In this document: positions 59,265 to 64,000 of the stretch, piece after piece
How the letters are laid out: the number at the start of each line of letters is the position of its first letter
Position numbering within the stretch: the stretch's first letter is position 1
Assembly (NCBI GenBank): GCA_019261985.1
Contig: JAFAQY010000015.1
Location: 1 to 64,000, forward strand
Direction of reading: 5' to 3'
Source: Bryobacterales bacterium
Lineage (GTDB): Bacteria; Acidobacteriota; Terriglobia; Bryobacterales; Bryobacteraceae
DNA: 64,000 nucleotides
The notes under the pieces: generated by a model
Seen by the model: only the letters and a program-made list of their open reading frames with translations
Told to the model about the DNA's origin: nothing
The model's database searches: none
Translations under genes and position numbers: made by a program

Positions 59265-60680
59265 ATGATACGCCCGATACTTGCCGGACTGACGATGGCG
59301 GTCGCCGCCATCGCAGATCAGCCCACGTCCGTGACATTTACCAAGGACGTCCTTCCCATCCTCCAAAAGCACTGCCAAAGCTGCCATCGGCCGGGCCAAG
59401 TTGCGCCCATGCCGCTGATCAGTTATCAGGATACGCGTCCATGGGCCAAAGCCATGAAGGCCGCGGTAACAAGCAGGAAGATGCCGCCCTGGTTCGCGAA
59501 CACTAAATACGGGCATTTTGCTAACGATCGATCGCTACGGCAGAGCGAAATCGACATGATTGCAGCGTGGGCGGACACAGGCGCGGCGGAGGGCAGCCCA
59601 AAAGACGGTCCGGCCCCGATTCGATGGCCGTCGGGACGCTGGGCAGTACAGCCGGATGTTGTTATGGATCTGCCCGCGCACGATGTTCCGGCAAAGGGTG
59701 TTCTTGAATGGGAGCTGATCGCATTTCCGGCCCCCTTCAAAACCGACACGTGGGTGACTTCCATGGAGATCCTGCCTGGCGATCCATCGGTGGTGCATCA
59801 TATTTGCTTCAGCTTCGAAAAACACAAACCCACGACCGTCTACAACCGCTATGAGTGGGTGCAGGTGCCGCGGGATTCATCTGGAAATCCTACGCCCGGC
59901 AATTCCGGATTCGGGGAGCTGCCGGGAATGATCATCGCAACCCGCGATGTAGGCAGCACCCAAGTCAACTTGAGGCAGGGCCACGCAACACTTCACCAGA
60001 ATCTGGATTTTTGTTACTTGCCCGGCAATACTTATGAAGACTATCGCGCCTGGAATGCGGGAAAGCTGGTGCCCGCCGGATCGGACATTATCGTCAGCCT
60101 GCATTACACGACGAACGGTAAGGCGCTGGTCGACCGAACCAAGATCGGGTTCACGGTGGCGAAGACTGCGCCTGCGAAGAAGTTTGTCGTGCAAGGCGCG
60201 GGCGAAGATACTCCGGTTATCGCTCCGACAGCCGCGAGCAGCCGCGCGCTGTTCGCTTCTACATATAATCCGGAATTTGCGATTCCGCCGAATAAGAGCG
60301 ATTATCGGGCGCCGCCAATGGATATTACATTCCTTAAAGATGTGGAGATCGTGACGCTGCGGCCGCATGCGCACGTCCGCGGAAAGAGCGCTCAATATAA
60401 ACTCGTTTATCCGGATGGACGCGAAGAAGTCGTTCTGGACGTCCCTCGTTACGACTTTAACTGGCAGCTTTCTTATCAGACTTCTCTCACAATCCCGAAA
60501 GGGACGCATATGCGGTTTGAATTCACGTACGATAATTCGGCGAACAACCCAAGTAATCCCGATCCGAACCGCTGGGTTTATCAAGGATTTCAAAGCTGGG
60601 AAGAGATGATGGCCCCGAATCTCGGATTCCTGTTGGACCGCGACGCCGATGTCGGCGGGCTGATGTCGATCACGAATTAA
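59265..60680 (+). CDS. Exported cytochrome c with copper monooxygenase-like domain
   Basis: This 471-residue protein has a start with AAGGAGG upstream. A short signal peptide precedes a heme motif CQSCH (Cys37, Cys40, His41). The rest has His-rich motifs like the copper type II ascorbate-dependent monooxygenases (VHHICFSFEKHK, SLHYTTNG, RPHAHVRGKS). Domain naming is by similarity only. It is probably periplasmic redox. A palindromic repeat lies just upstream. Confidence 0.75.
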   Translation: MIRPILAGLTMAVAAIADQPTSVTFTKDVLPILQKHCQSCHRPGQVAPMPLISYQDTRPWAKAMKAAVTSRKMPPWFANTKYGHFANDRSLRQSEIDMIAAWADTGAAEGSPKDGPAPIRWPSGRWAVQPDVVMDLPAHDVPAKGVLEWELIAFPAPFKTDTWVTSMEILPGDPSVVHHICFSFEKHKPTTVYNRYEWVQVPRDSSGNPTPGNSGFGELPGMIIATRDVGSTQVNLRQGHATLHQNLDFCYLPGNTYEDYRAWNAGKLVPAGSDIIVSLHYTTNGKALVDRTKIGFTVAKTAPAKKFVVQGAGEDTPVIAPTAASSRALFASTYNPEFAIPPNKSDYRAPPMDITFLKDVEIVTLRPHAHVRGKSAQYKLVYPDGREEVVLDVPRYDFNWQLSYQTSLTIPKGTHMRFEFTYDNSANNPSNPDPNRWVYQGFQSWEEMMAPNLGFLLDRDADVGGLMSITN

Positions 60681-60869: not shown

Positions 60870-62318
60870 ATGATCCTCAAATTAAATCACCTTCAAGGAA
60901 AGGCCGCCGCGACTACCGCTCCGGACGTCATCGAGACCATCTACTCGCTGATGGAGGAAGGCCACATTGAGAAGGATCAGTTCGCGCGTCTGCAAATCGA
61001 GCTGGATTGGATTCAATACAAGCAGAACTTCCGCGAGGTTGTGATCGCCACGCAGGGTTATAACTCGCAAGGGCATCGCGCTCCGATGATGGACATGCAC
61101 GTGGATACGCGGCAGGTGTCCCCCGACTGCCTGCGCGCCGATCTTCTTCGCGCGCTGGCGCACGCCAAGCCCGGCCCGCAGCCGCAAGACCGGCTGCCGC
61201 TAGAGGATTTCCAATCGATGCGCTCCAGCATTGTATGGGAATTCAATAAGCTCTACTGGAACCGCCTGAAAGATTGGGAAACGATGAGCGGCAGAGGGTA
61301 TGAGCAGGCGCTTCCGGGAGGCCAGTCCGACGGTCATCAACCGCAAGCCATTGCCGACAGCGTTGGCGATTTCTGGACGCTGCTGCGCGACATGGAATCC
61401 AAGAACCAGCTCCCGCAGGAGGTCTTTCTGGTTGAGATCGGCGTCGGAACGGGTACCCGCATGGGGCTGTGGCTGGATAAGTTCCGCCAGCTTGACCAGC
61501 AGCGCGATACCAAATACTATCCGAAGCTAAAAGTTCTTCTTGGTGATTACTCGCTCGCGACGCTGGACATGTCGCGGCCGGCGGTCCGCGACCACGCCGA
61601 TCTGTGCAGTTTCCTGGTGCTGGACGCGATTAACCCGCTTAAATCGCTCTCATTCCTGCGTTATAAGGTAATGCTGGTCCACTCCACGAATGTTTACGAC
61701 AATTTGCCCGACGAAGAGGTGGTCCGGCGCGACGGACGCCTGTACTTCGTACAAGTGCGCGCGTATCTTCCCGTAGCGGAGGTGGCGCGAATTGCCTCGG
61801 CATTCGAAATTCCGGGAGACCGGATGCGGTCTCAAATAGACCGTCTATTGGAAGGCCATTTTGAAGACTTCGGCTCGCGAGAGCGCGGCGTTAATTTTTG
61901 GCAGGAAATCTGGAAGGCGGTTCGCCTGGAAGAGCGTCTGGTTCAGCTGGAGGATTTGCCCGAGTTCCCGTTTCCGGAAGGGTTGGACGCGGGCAAGCTG
62001 GAGGACATGCTGCAACAGGCTCCCGCCGATTTCCGATTCCATCTGAGCTCAGGCGCGCTGGAGAGCCTAGTTCGCACGCTGCCTCTGCTGCATCCGCGCG
62101 GCTACCTGCAGGTGCAGGACATTTTCGTAACCGATATCAACCAGTACCGCCTGGGTTTCTTTGGCCCCGGCAAGCTAGAGGGCTCGCTGTTGAACTGGGT
62201 CAATGGCGCTTTACTTAAGGAGGTGGCGGAGCGCGCCGGCTATGACGTGCACTTCGCTCCCTTCCACTACCGCAAAGGATCCCGCACGTCTATTCTCTAT
62301 ACGACGCGCCGCGAATAA
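60870..62318 (+). CDS. MidA-like SAM-dependent methyltransferase
   Basis: This 482-residue protein has a SAM-binding motif VEIGVGTGTRMGLWLDKF and an adjoining LKVLLGDYS. Later segments are SFLRYKVMLVHSTNVYDNLPDEEV and LLHPRGYLQVQDIFV. The order resembles MidA/DUF185 (PF02636) methyltransferases, but the assignment is tentative. It is followed at 6 bp by a methionine synthase-like gene and then metF, so a role with methionine/C1 metabolism is inferred. Confidence 0.65.
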   Translation: MILKLNHLQGKAAATTAPDVIETIYSLMEEGHIEKDQFARLQIELDWIQYKQNFREVVIATQGYNSQGHRAPMMDMHVDTRQVSPDCLRADLLRALAHAKPGPQPQDRLPLEDFQSMRSSIVWEFNKLYWNRLKDWETMSGRGYEQALPGGQSDGHQPQAIADSVGDFWTLLRDMESKNQLPQEVFLVEIGVGTGTRMGLWLDKFRQLDQQRDTKYYPKLKVLLGDYSLATLDMSRPAVRDHADLCSFLVLDAINPLKSLSFLRYKVMLVHSTNVYDNLPDEEVVRRDGRLYFVQVRAYLPVAEVARIASAFEIPGDRMRSQIDRLLEGHFEDFGSRERGVNFWQEIWKAVRLEERLVQLEDLPEFPFPEGLDAGKLEDMLQQAPADFRFHLSSGALESLVRTLPLLHPRGYLQVQDIFVTDINQYRLGFFGPGKLEGSLLNWVNGALLKEVAERAGYDVHFAPFHYRKGSRTSILYTTRRE

Positions 62319-62324
62319 TTACTA

Positions 62325-63326
62325 ATGAGTCTCCCTATTCTTCCCACAGGAATCGTCGGCAGCTATGCCATGCCGGGCTGGCTGGAGCGCCTGAAGACCG
62401 ATTACTTCGCCCGGCGCATCAGCCGCCACGATCTGGATGAGATCTACGATACGTCGGTCAAAGCCGCAATTAAGGACCAGGAAATCGCGGGTATCGACAT
62501 CGTTACGGATGGAGAGTCGCGGCGCGATAACAATGTCGATTATTTTTTGGAGCGATTTCCCGGCGTGCAACTCGACCGTTCGTCCAAGAAGTTCTATTAC
62601 GATTTCTACGACAGCGTGGTGCAAGGCAAGCTGCCGATGGCGTCGCTCGGCCTGGTTTCGGATTTCAGCTTCTTGCGAACCTTCACCGAACGCGCGACCA
62701 AATTCTGCATCACGGGTCCGCACTGCCTGGCGAAGCGAATTCGCAACAAGTTCTACACGAGCGAAGAAGCGCTGGCAATGGATCTGGCGCGGGTGATGAA
62801 TCTGGAGCTGAAAGCGCTTGCAAAGGCAGGCGCGAAATTCCTTCAGATCGATGAGCCGTATTATTCCGGCTTTCCAGAGGACGTTAATTGGGCGGTAAAG
62901 TCGCTGAATACGTTGGTGGATGGAGTCGATTCGAAGATTGCCGTTCACATCTGCTATGGGAACCGCTACGGCAAGCCTTCGTGGGAAGGCAGCTACCGTT
63001 ATCTTTTCCCGGCGATCCTGGATGCCAAGGTGCAGCAACTGACGCTCGAATTCGCCCGCCGCGGCGGCGAGGACCTGGATCTTTTCAAGGAATTCAACCC
63101 GCCATTCGAGCTGGGAGTGGGAGTGATCGATGTGAAGACTCACGAGCTCGAAACCGCGGATATGGTGGCGGAGCACATCCGCCGGGCGCTGGAAGTAATG
63201 CCCGCCGAGCGGCTGTATATACTTACGGATTGCGGCTGTGTCCACCTGCCGCGCGACGTGGCGTTCGCGAAAATGAAAGCAATGGTGGATGGGACCAAGA
63301 TCGTCCGCAAGGAGCTTGGCAAGTAG
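62325..63326 (+). CDS. Core-MetE-like methionine synthase (C-terminal domain only)
   Basis: This 333-residue TIM barrel matches the C-terminal half of MetE: LPTGIVGSYAMPGWLERL, DIVTDGESRRDN, ITGPHCLAKR, FLQIDEPYYSG, HICYGN, LTLEFARRG and LTDCGCVHLPRDVAFAK. Zinc ligands of MetE (His/Cys in HICYGN, Glu in LEFA, Cys in DCGC) are present. It lacks the MetE N-terminal domain that binds folate. Such short forms accept methyl groups from cobalamin proteins or other donors. The methyl donor is unknown here. Confidence 0.75.
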   Translation: MSLPILPTGIVGSYAMPGWLERLKTDYFARRISRHDLDEIYDTSVKAAIKDQEIAGIDIVTDGESRRDNNVDYFLERFPGVQLDRSSKKFYYDFYDSVVQGKLPMASLGLVSDFSFLRTFTERATKFCITGPHCLAKRIRNKFYTSEEALAMDLARVMNLELKALAKAGAKFLQIDEPYYSGFPEDVNWAVKSLNTLVDGVDSKIAVHICYGNRYGKPSWEGSYRYLFPAILDAKVQQLTLEFARRGGEDLDLFKEFNPPFELGVGVIDVKTHELETADMVAEHIRRALEVMPAERLYILTDCGCVHLPRDVAFAKMKAMVDGTKIVRKELGK

Positions 63327-63335
63327 GTTTATTCG

Positions 63336-64000
63336 ATGCCCGGGACCAACTCAATTCGCGAAGCGCTAGCGGGCAAGAAGTTCGCCTACATGGTGGAGCT
63401 GGTAGCCAGCCGGCTGACTCGGGAAGCGAAGGTATTCGAGACCGCTTCTCGCCTGGCGCAGGTGCCGGAAGTAGTGGCGGCGAGCATCACCAGTTATGCG
63501 GGCGGCTCGTTGGGCCACGACCCCATCCGCATCGGCACCGCCGTTCGCGCCCGCGGCCTTACGCCCAATATTCACCTGACTTGCGTGGGCCGTGATCGCC
63601 TGGACTTGCGACGCGCGCTTGAAGACCTGAATGCGCTGGGCATTGAGAACGTCTTCGCCATTAGCGGCGATTACCCGCTGCAGAAGCGCGAAAGCAATCC
63701 CGGGCCGCACCAATATTACGATTTCGATTCCGTACAACTGGTGGAGGCGATAAACGAACTTCGCCAGCAGGGTCTGCCGTTTCATATTTCCGTGGCGGTG
63801 TCGCCTTTTAAGTACACCGAAGCGGATTGCGTGTACCAATACCTGAAGCTTGAGAAGAAGATCGCCGCGGGAGCGGACTTCGCCATCACGCAACTCGGCT
63901 ACGACTCGCGGAAATTCCGGGAACTGAAGCGGTATCTCGACGAGCGTGGCCTGAAAACCCCGGTGTTCGGCAGCGTCTACATTCTGCCTGCCAAGGCCGC
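63336..64000 (+). CDS. Methylenetetrahydrofolate reductase-like protein, N-terminal part
   Basis: Starts at ATG 63336, 9 bp after the previous stop, and runs off the window (221 codons). Signature segments are YMVELVASRLTREAKV, IHLTCVGRDRLDLRRAL, IENVFAISGDYP and FAITQLGYDSRKFRELKRYL, as in the MetF/MTHFR barrel. It reduces methylene- to methyl-tetrahydrofolate. Its place next to core-MetE supports a methionine operon. Confidence 0.8.
   Translation, partial: MPGTNSIREALAGKKFAYMVELVASRLTREAKVFETASRLAQVPEVVAASITSYAGGSLGHDPIRIGTAVRARGLTPNIHLTCVGRDRLDLRRALEDLNALGIENVFAISGDYPLQKRESNPGPHQYYDFDSVQLVEAINELRQQGLPFHISVAVSPFKYTEADCVYQYLKLEKKIAAGADFAITQLGYDSRKFRELKRYLDERGLKTPVFGSVYILPAKA

Follow-up and report, generated by a model that had tools for sequence, protein, structure and literature searches.

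The window analysed here, a 64,000-nucleotide stretch from a Bryobacterales bacterium (assembly GCA_019261985.1, 6.49 Mb and 98.8% complete; bases 1–64000 of contig C87, JAFAQY010000015.1), ends in an operon of three genes: g1, with a predicted MidA-like methyltransferase fold; a methionine synthase core without a folate-binding domain (core-MetE); and a methylenetetrahydrofolate reductase (MTHFR) fusion. We consider it somewhat probable that the operon encodes a cobalamin-independent methionine synthase system fed by 5-methyltetrahydrofolate (5-methyl-THF), with g1 standing in for the folate domain. The MTHFR fusion would convert 5,10-methylene-THF to 5-methyl-THF, a supply that in relatives would come from another MTHFR-type gene or from the O-demethylase LigM; core-MetE would turn zinc-held homocysteine into methionine; and g1, needed because core-MetE has no folate domain, would be an obligate partner that lets core-MetE use 5-methyl-THF, whether g1 binds and presents the folate or passes its methyl group on. 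We infer the synthase activity of core-MetE from its residues, its gene context and the absence of MetH from some carriers, and the donor from the neighbouring genes; the role of g1 would be the least certain step of the scheme.

Operon layout and conservation

The features of the operon within the window are as follows.

60870–62318, + strand: g1, an open reading frame of 482 amino acids (aa) with a predicted MidA/COG1565-like S-adenosylmethionine (SAM)-methyltransferase fold; always adjacent to core-MetE in the testable loci and presumed to be its partner
61434–61454, + strand: SAM motif I of g1, E189-x-G-x-G-x-G, invariant in homologues
62325–63326, + strand: core-MetE, 333 aa, predicted cobalamin-independent methionine synthase catalytic domain without the folate-binding N-terminal domain
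62361–62852, + strand: stretch of core-MetE with the predicted homocysteine-binding residues S13, E64 and D176 (E. coli S433, E484 and D599)
62946–63233, + strand: stretch of core-MetE with the predicted zinc ligands H208, C210, E242 and C303 (E. coli H641, C643, E665 and C726)
63336–64000, + strand: 5′ part of an MTHFR-DUF5981 fusion (MetF-MetV type) of 503 aa, which ends at contig base 64847, past the window end

All three genes share the + strand, g1 and core-MetE being 6 bases apart and core-MetE and the MTHFR fusion 9; an earlier note, made from this sequence alone, had read them as one operon, which the frames and the adjacency of g1 and core-MetE in relatives confirm. It had also described a MetE-like protein without the folate-binding N-terminal domain, and this description held: PF01717 (Meth_synt_2) covers the full length of core-MetE (136.6 bits), whereas the match to PF08267 (Meth_synt_1, the folate domain) is no more than a partial cross-match lying within that catalytic domain (29.4 bits, cut-off 27). 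The adjoining MetF that it named stood in part, in that an MTHFR does lie beside the pair; however, this is no plain MetF but, from its Pfam matches to PF02219 (98.1 bits) and the cysteine-rich PF12225 (DUF5981; 91.8 bits), a predicted fusion of MTHFR with a MetV-like C-terminal domain. We take it to be comparable to the MetF-MetV type of MTHFR, which has the same two domains; here, by contrast, both parts are fused and stand in an operon with core-MetE.

Among 101 related genomes searched with core-MetE, 16 matched at E ≤ 1e-60, 15 of them closely (65–82% identity, with the window itself at 100%) and one through a distant paralogue only; g1 lay directly 5′ of core-MetE in all 15 close loci, and the MTHFR fusion 3′ of it in 13. 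Across 399 genomes of the class, a g1 profile gave 36 strong matches (at least 272 bits) and four weak ones (G592, G393, G689 and G589, at 20–31 bits), 40 in all; the weak ones were left out of the counts. In total, 40 g1 loci, including 25 further ones, were compared, loci fetched twice being counted once (L018/L062, L046/L060, L047/L059, L048/L061, L050/L058 and L053/L063); 39 were testable, the exception being L146, in which g1 is cut by the contig end and the contig holds no MetE. Core-MetE was found directly 3′ of g1 on the same strand in 39/39 testable loci, at a distance between the matches (stop codon included) of 90 bases in one locus and 6–23 in the other 38. The three-gene operon is therefore real and conserved and not a chance arrangement, and g1 and core-MetE were never found apart in the loci examined, making g1 a likely partner, as the earlier note had suggested it could be.

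Other searches for g1 had a shorter reach. A single-sequence search of 297 genomes of the phylum recovered no more than this genome and a second member of its genus, fewer than the class-wide profile; a contig scan, whose patterns reach close relatives only, recovered six relatives, five of them Bryobacterales, Bryobacteraceae or Terriglobia metagenome-assembled genomes (MAGs); and no g1 homologue was found on plasmids at E 0.01. One record, L062 (CALQCC020000049.1), is titled as a Bordetella parapertussis MAG, carries a Bryobacterales-type operon and is probably mislabelled.

Comparison with known methionine synthases

The roles of the seven zinc- and homocysteine-binding residues were taken from Price et al. 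(2021; PMC7857596). In core-MetE, the homocysteine-binding S, E and D and the zinc-binding H, C, E and C were invariant in 39/39 core sequences, and all seven were also present in the MesD, paralogue, catalytic MetE and c3 rows; as judged from the alignment, they mark a methionine-synthase-type site and are not specific to the g1-linked family. In a MetE tree of 56 rows, the g1-linked core-MetEs formed one clade of 39 rows (support 100/98), separate from MesD (three rows, 100/100), from full and split MetE (100/100), and from a clade (100/99) that joins four paralogues to one actinobacterial and two alphaproteobacterial proteins. The spurious 222-aa L064 frame, two split-MetE N-terminal rows and L152 were left out; the tree program warned of long branches, and the place of L156 (the G384 paralogue), on a very long branch beside c3 proteins, is unsure.

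This genome also contains a second, distant core-MetE on contig C21 (38–39% identity); this paralogue (L013:5602–6669) keeps all seven active-site residues and groups with proteins from Aminobacter, Pseudoroseomonas and Nonomuraea, the Aminobacter one having an extradiol ring-cleavage dioxygenase gene as its neighbour. In family f86, a MetE-domain protein of a third type is encoded 5′ of g1 (L130:5543–6685, with similar genes in L126, L131, L133, L138 and L140); the one scanned, from L130, was nearest to PRK06520 (276.6 bits, cut-off 313).

MesD resembles core-MetE in lacking a folate domain, in the same seven residues, in having a constant partner gene (MesX, DUF1852) and in often occurring beside MetH in one genome. 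Identity with MesD was nevertheless rejected: core-MetE scored 201.6 bits with PRK09121 against a cut-off of 392 (control MesDs beside MesX/DUF1852 on Acinetobacter and Pantoea plasmids scored 688.2 and 690.7), the operon holds no MesX, and the two form separate clades. Core-MetE was 33–34% identical to three plasmid MesDs, its partner is MidA-like and not MesX, and an MTHFR is conserved beside it, whereas MesD needs oxygen and has no need of MetF. The Pfam model PF08908 scored 531.5 bits on plasmid MesX and matched 0/101 relatives, this genome included, although no control genome gave a match either and genome-wide absence is thus not proven.

The remaining Mes families were compared by residues and by description. 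Price et al. (PMC7857596) report Gln at the E. coli E484 position in MesA and MesC, His at C643 in most MesC, confinement of MesA to methanogens, and a lack of conservation of E484 in most MesB; the window core-MetE keeps that Glu. MesA was ruled out by Glu, not Gln, at residue 64 in 39/39 sequences and by a host that its named relatives mark as Acidobacteriota-type, and MesC by the same Glu together with Cys at the C643 position in 39/39. MesA, MesB and MesC share the lack of a folate domain and are thought to draw methyl groups from corrinoid proteins of anaerobes (PMC7857596), whereas the B12-binding_2 domain was not found in four operon carriers here; MesB, which is recognised by its bit score to DET0516 and by CoFeSP (AcsC/AcsD) in the genome, was compared by its description and not by sequence. 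Canonical MetE was ruled out, TIGR01371 matching the 333-aa protein only with its C-terminal half (111.3 bits, cut-off 929.95). A split MetE likewise has its catalytic half as a gene of its own, and PRK04326 was the best NCBIfam model, though its 296 bits stay below the cut-off of 406; a split MetE was rejected in that the operon holds no Meth_synt_1 protein, the only PF08267 match in this genome is the 22–30 bit cross-match of the core-MetE frame itself, g1 has another predicted fold, and full and split MetE lie elsewhere on the tree.

By sequence, the g1-linked core-MetE is distinct from the Mes families as compared with MesA, MesC and MesD. The proposal of a further variant beside MesA–MesD is thus upheld for MesD (tree, score and MesX) and for MesA and MesC (residues). 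Other core methionine synthases, with different partners, have been described before, and a Mes-like enzyme from Phaeobacter adds another that is not yet defined (PMC12366255); a MidA-like partner seems undescribed, no description having been found in the open-licence PMC literature searched.

The operon is not the sole methionine route in this strain, because a full-length MetH (1163 aa; TIGR02082 1127.7 bits, cut-off 1010.85), a homocysteine S-methyltransferase-MTHFR fusion (PRK08645 744.9 bits, cut-off 453) and the second core-MetE are also present. The earlier note had held that a full MetH or MetE, combined with a grouping in a non-methionine-synthase subfamily, would speak against its proposal; the full MetH is there, but no such grouping appeared among the families compared, and MetH is absent from 8/15 carriers. 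The MetH activation domain (PF02965) was present in 84/101 relatives and, in these draft genomes, absent from 8/15 operon carriers versus 9/86 non-carriers (Fisher p 4e-4). PF02607 matched frames of 935 and 974 aa in two of those non-carriers, G301 and G333, which probably hold a fragmentary MetH; if they are counted as MetH-bearing, the absence is 8/15 versus 7/86 (p 1.2e-4). Within the same genus, MetH was absent from 7/11 carriers versus 2/12 non-carriers (p 0.036) or, without G301, 7/11 versus 1/12 (p 0.009), that one non-carrier being 65% complete.

Of the eight MetH-less carriers, six are at least 95% complete and the others 82% and 89%. PF02607 (B12-binding_2) was not found in four of them, gave weak matches in three, in frames of 302–386 aa that are too short for MetH, and matched G313 at E 3.6e-4, at a position that was not listed. 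A full-length MetE (PF08267) is absent from all eight and, among the relatives, occurs only in three non-carriers; nor did any of the eight give a MesX match in the search without a positive-control genome. The MetH-less carriers occupy several places on the MetE tree (G302 with G304; G316; G313; G303 with G297 and G187; G383), which suggests that MetH was lost repeatedly among carriers.

g1 and its predicted fold

The window g1 had no Pfam match above cut-off, Methyltransf_28 (PF02636) reaching 12.7 bits (E 0.087, cut-off 23.3); this model matched 6/15 g1 homologues at E ≤ 1 (best E 3.2e-4), and a g1 profile found no sequence match in the PDB. An AlphaFold2 (AF2) model of g1 was of low confidence (predicted local distance difference test, pLDDT, 53.1; predicted template modelling score, pTM, 0.41), as was that of a second run with another first sequence (pLDDT 54.7). 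The six best Foldseek rows for the model were 4f3n, 1zkd (two chains), 5ztz, 4g67 and 5zu0, four of them titled COG1565 or MidA; 1zkd is presumably COG1565 too. With VIA-align, this weak model (pLDDT 53) gave Z 15.3–13.2 to the five entries over residues 108–482, the next row being at 11.5; MidA 5zu0 aligned at Z 15.3, 4.1 Å over 282 residues and 12% identity, values that rest on the weak model, with the N-terminal ∼105 residues barely tested.

The likeness to MidA/NDUFAF7 (COG1565, Methyltransf_28) is thus one of predicted fold, over residues 108–481, whereas g1 differs in its 12% identity, an extra N-terminus of ∼105 residues, a Pfam score below cut-off and its link with methionine genes. 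On the modelled fold, the MidA-like label given by the earlier note is reasonable, even though the window protein itself falls under the Pfam cut-off. MidA/NDUFAF7 is reported to methylate a complex I arginine (PMC3829151).

E189, G191, G193, G195, D226, D252 and N274 were invariant in 15/15 g1 homologues. We take these to be SAM-site positions by comparison with the methyltransferase fold as we know it. Because these motifs are intact, g1 may methylate core-MetE or another target, or sense SAM. It could accordingly be an ordinary SAM methyltransferase whose substrate is a protein arginine, as for MidA, or a small molecule, with core-MetE and MTHFR recycling its product to SAM, or it could activate core-MetE or MTHFR by methylation; the invariance of every SAM-motif residue examined and the MidA/COG1565 methyltransferases among the best fold matches would fit. 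We regard this explanation as unlikely, however, as it accounts neither for the methyl source of a MetE without a folate domain nor for the tie of g1 to one type of MetE in 39/39 loci, even where MetH is present. A corrinoid carrier role of g1 was rejected, the DxHxxG motif being found in 0/15 g1 sequences and PF02607 in none of the four MetH-less carriers mentioned above, and on the same two grounds a corrinoid donor is disfavoured; this covers DxHxxG and PF02607, PF02310 and CoFeSP lying outside the search.

The methyl donor and its consequences

An MTHFR-type gene or LigM stood near the pair in 36/39 testable loci. A homologue of the MTHFR fusion lay directly 3′ of core-MetE in 25 (including L125, L139 and L141, where it is in two pieces, and L049 and L132, where it is cut by the contig end), and 11 others had a convergent MTHFR-like gene, c19 (n = 2), an upstream MetF (n = 1), LigM (n = 5), LigM with another MTHFR-like gene, c16 (n = 1), or c16 alone (n = 2). 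The MetF, in L142, is full-length and directly 5′ of the pair (TIGR00676 329.8 bits, cut-off 293.7). LigM occurred in seven loci, upstream and on the same strand as the pair, and together with the MTHFR fusion in L126. These are LigM-type vanillate/3-O-methylgallate O-demethylase genes of family f86 (L134:7176–8573, − strand; L126, L133, L135, L137, L138 and L140), of which the one scanned was firmly identified at 766.8 bits against a cut-off of 580; LigM also matched 5tl4, a vanillate/3-O-methylgallate demethylase of solved structure, with 663 bits. LigM moves the methyl group of vanillate onto THF, and its product is 5-methyl-THF. Since MTHFR-type genes or LigM recur in this way, 5-methyl-THF is the theme common to the neighbouring genes; formate-THF ligase was also present in 9/40 g1 loci, and at L058 four genes stand in a row: the MTHFR fusion, one in which a homocysteine methyltransferase is fused to MTHFR, MetH and formate-THF ligase. 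The earlier note's view that the methyl-donor route is not the usual one is therefore not borne out for the donor itself: an MTHFR, or in its place another MTHFR-type gene or LigM, is kept near the pair, and the methyl group probably comes from the usual donor, 5-methyl-THF, by an unusual route.

The number of PF02219 matches in four carriers also favours the proposed system: G187, G378 and G383 have none besides the operon MTHFR, and G297 has a single one, the weak c19 gene next to its operon. Six MetH-bearing carriers (G000, G308, G312, G314, G349 and G389) have a second PF02219 match, in a frame of 625–661 aa (99.7–120.2 bits) that was fused to a homocysteine methyltransferase in both genomes scanned (G000 and G349). 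The MetH-less G302, G303, G304 and G313 have a like fusion with an intact methyltransferase part, but its MTHFR part scored only 48–80 bits, versus 114–118 bits with the same tool in G349 and G000. We infer that this fits two parallel routes, MTHFR-MetH and MTHFR-core-MetE, the former of which would decay upon loss of MetH.

A donor other than 5-methyl-THF would require a MesD/MesX-like pair in which g1 makes or carries a methyl group from another metabolite, with MTHFR and LigM serving separate one-carbon metabolism, such as oxidising the 5-methyl-THF of O-demethylation. The closest solved structure to core-MetE is 3rpd (165 bits), which is named MesD, and MesD is independent of MetF (both PMC7857596); three loci, moreover, show no MTHFR or LigM in the stretch. 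We nevertheless judge this quite improbable in view of the MTHFR directly 3′ in 25/39 operons and the MTHFR-type gene or LigM near 11 more, the three genomes in which the operon MTHFR is the sole PF02219 match, and the lack of a MesX match in the 101 relatives (again without a positive control). A role of the pair chiefly as a sink for the methyl groups of lignin-type O-demethylation, regenerating THF from LigM-made 5-methyl-THF with methionine as a by-product, would suit the upstream, same-strand LigM of seven loci and the PcaH-type protocatechuate (3,4-)dioxygenase genes of four (L052, L125, L128 and L136), but is very improbable, as LigM was not found in the fetched stretches of family f1 and f84 loci, including 20 kb around the window operon (the rest of those genomes was not searched), and as the MetH association fits biosynthesis.

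A synthase fed by 5-methyl-THF through g1 may, more specifically, be a fifth kind of core methionine synthase, composed of two proteins, in which a MidA-fold g1 unrelated to the folate domain of MetE brings 5-methyl-THF to a zinc-homocysteine core, neither cobalamin nor MesX is used, and MetH could be lost repeatedly; this fuller form is possible, though on balance doubtful.

Several points weigh against a g1-assisted, folate-fed synthase. With respect to g1, the protein keeps a complete set of SAM motifs that the scheme does not need, we know of no SAM-methyltransferase fold that uses folate, and no cysteine is invariant among the 15 homologues, so that a methyl-cysteine relay by g1 is unlikely. 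With respect to the neighbours, neither MTHFR nor LigM appears in the sequence fetched for L127, L129 and L143 (one of the three has >5 kb on each side, and L127 and L129 have little upstream sequence), and the stand-in MTHFR-like genes c16 and c19 are barely above the Pfam cut-off (PF02219 24.5–28.9 bits versus 24) and lie on the opposite strand. With respect to MetH, 7/15 carriers, this genome included, have it as well; the other core-MetE paralogue is present too in the MetH-less G313; a homocysteine S-methyltransferase domain, which could make methionine from other donors, persists in four of the MetH-less carriers; and the Fisher tests ignore relatedness, the comparison of MetH-less genomes did not survey other PF01717 proteins, and the MesX search carried no positive-control genome.

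Some further features lie around the operon. Just 5′ of it, window positions 59265–60680 encode a 471-aa protein with a CxxCH haem-type motif; a similar gene was seen only in L058 among the compared loci, much further from its operon. Upstream of g1, L044–L047 and L051 have two RraA-like aldolase genes and ABC transporter genes (family search on L047 only), and L051 an amidohydrolase gene. Genes named by eye as a UbiA-like prenyltransferase and an MqnE-like (futalosine menaquinone) protein lie near the operon at L018:4099–6166 and L053:4905–6934. Rfam, at the gathering threshold over 27/40 operon loci, gave three matches, none of them a riboswitch, whether of the B12 or SAM class or any other; at L054:10089–10270, a pair of Acido-Lenti-1 RNAs (RF01687), one on each strand, is located at the 3′ end of the MTHFR gene.

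In annotated genomes, methionine synthesis is recognised chiefly through MetH, MetE or one of the four Mes families, and the eight Acidobacteriota-type operon carriers without MetH, full MetE or a MesX match could be miscalled as methionine auxotrophs or as B12-dependent. The proposed system would give a MetE without a folate domain a possible folate route and the MidA-like family a role, and would tie methionine synthesis to the O-demethylation of lignin aromatics in soil bacteria.

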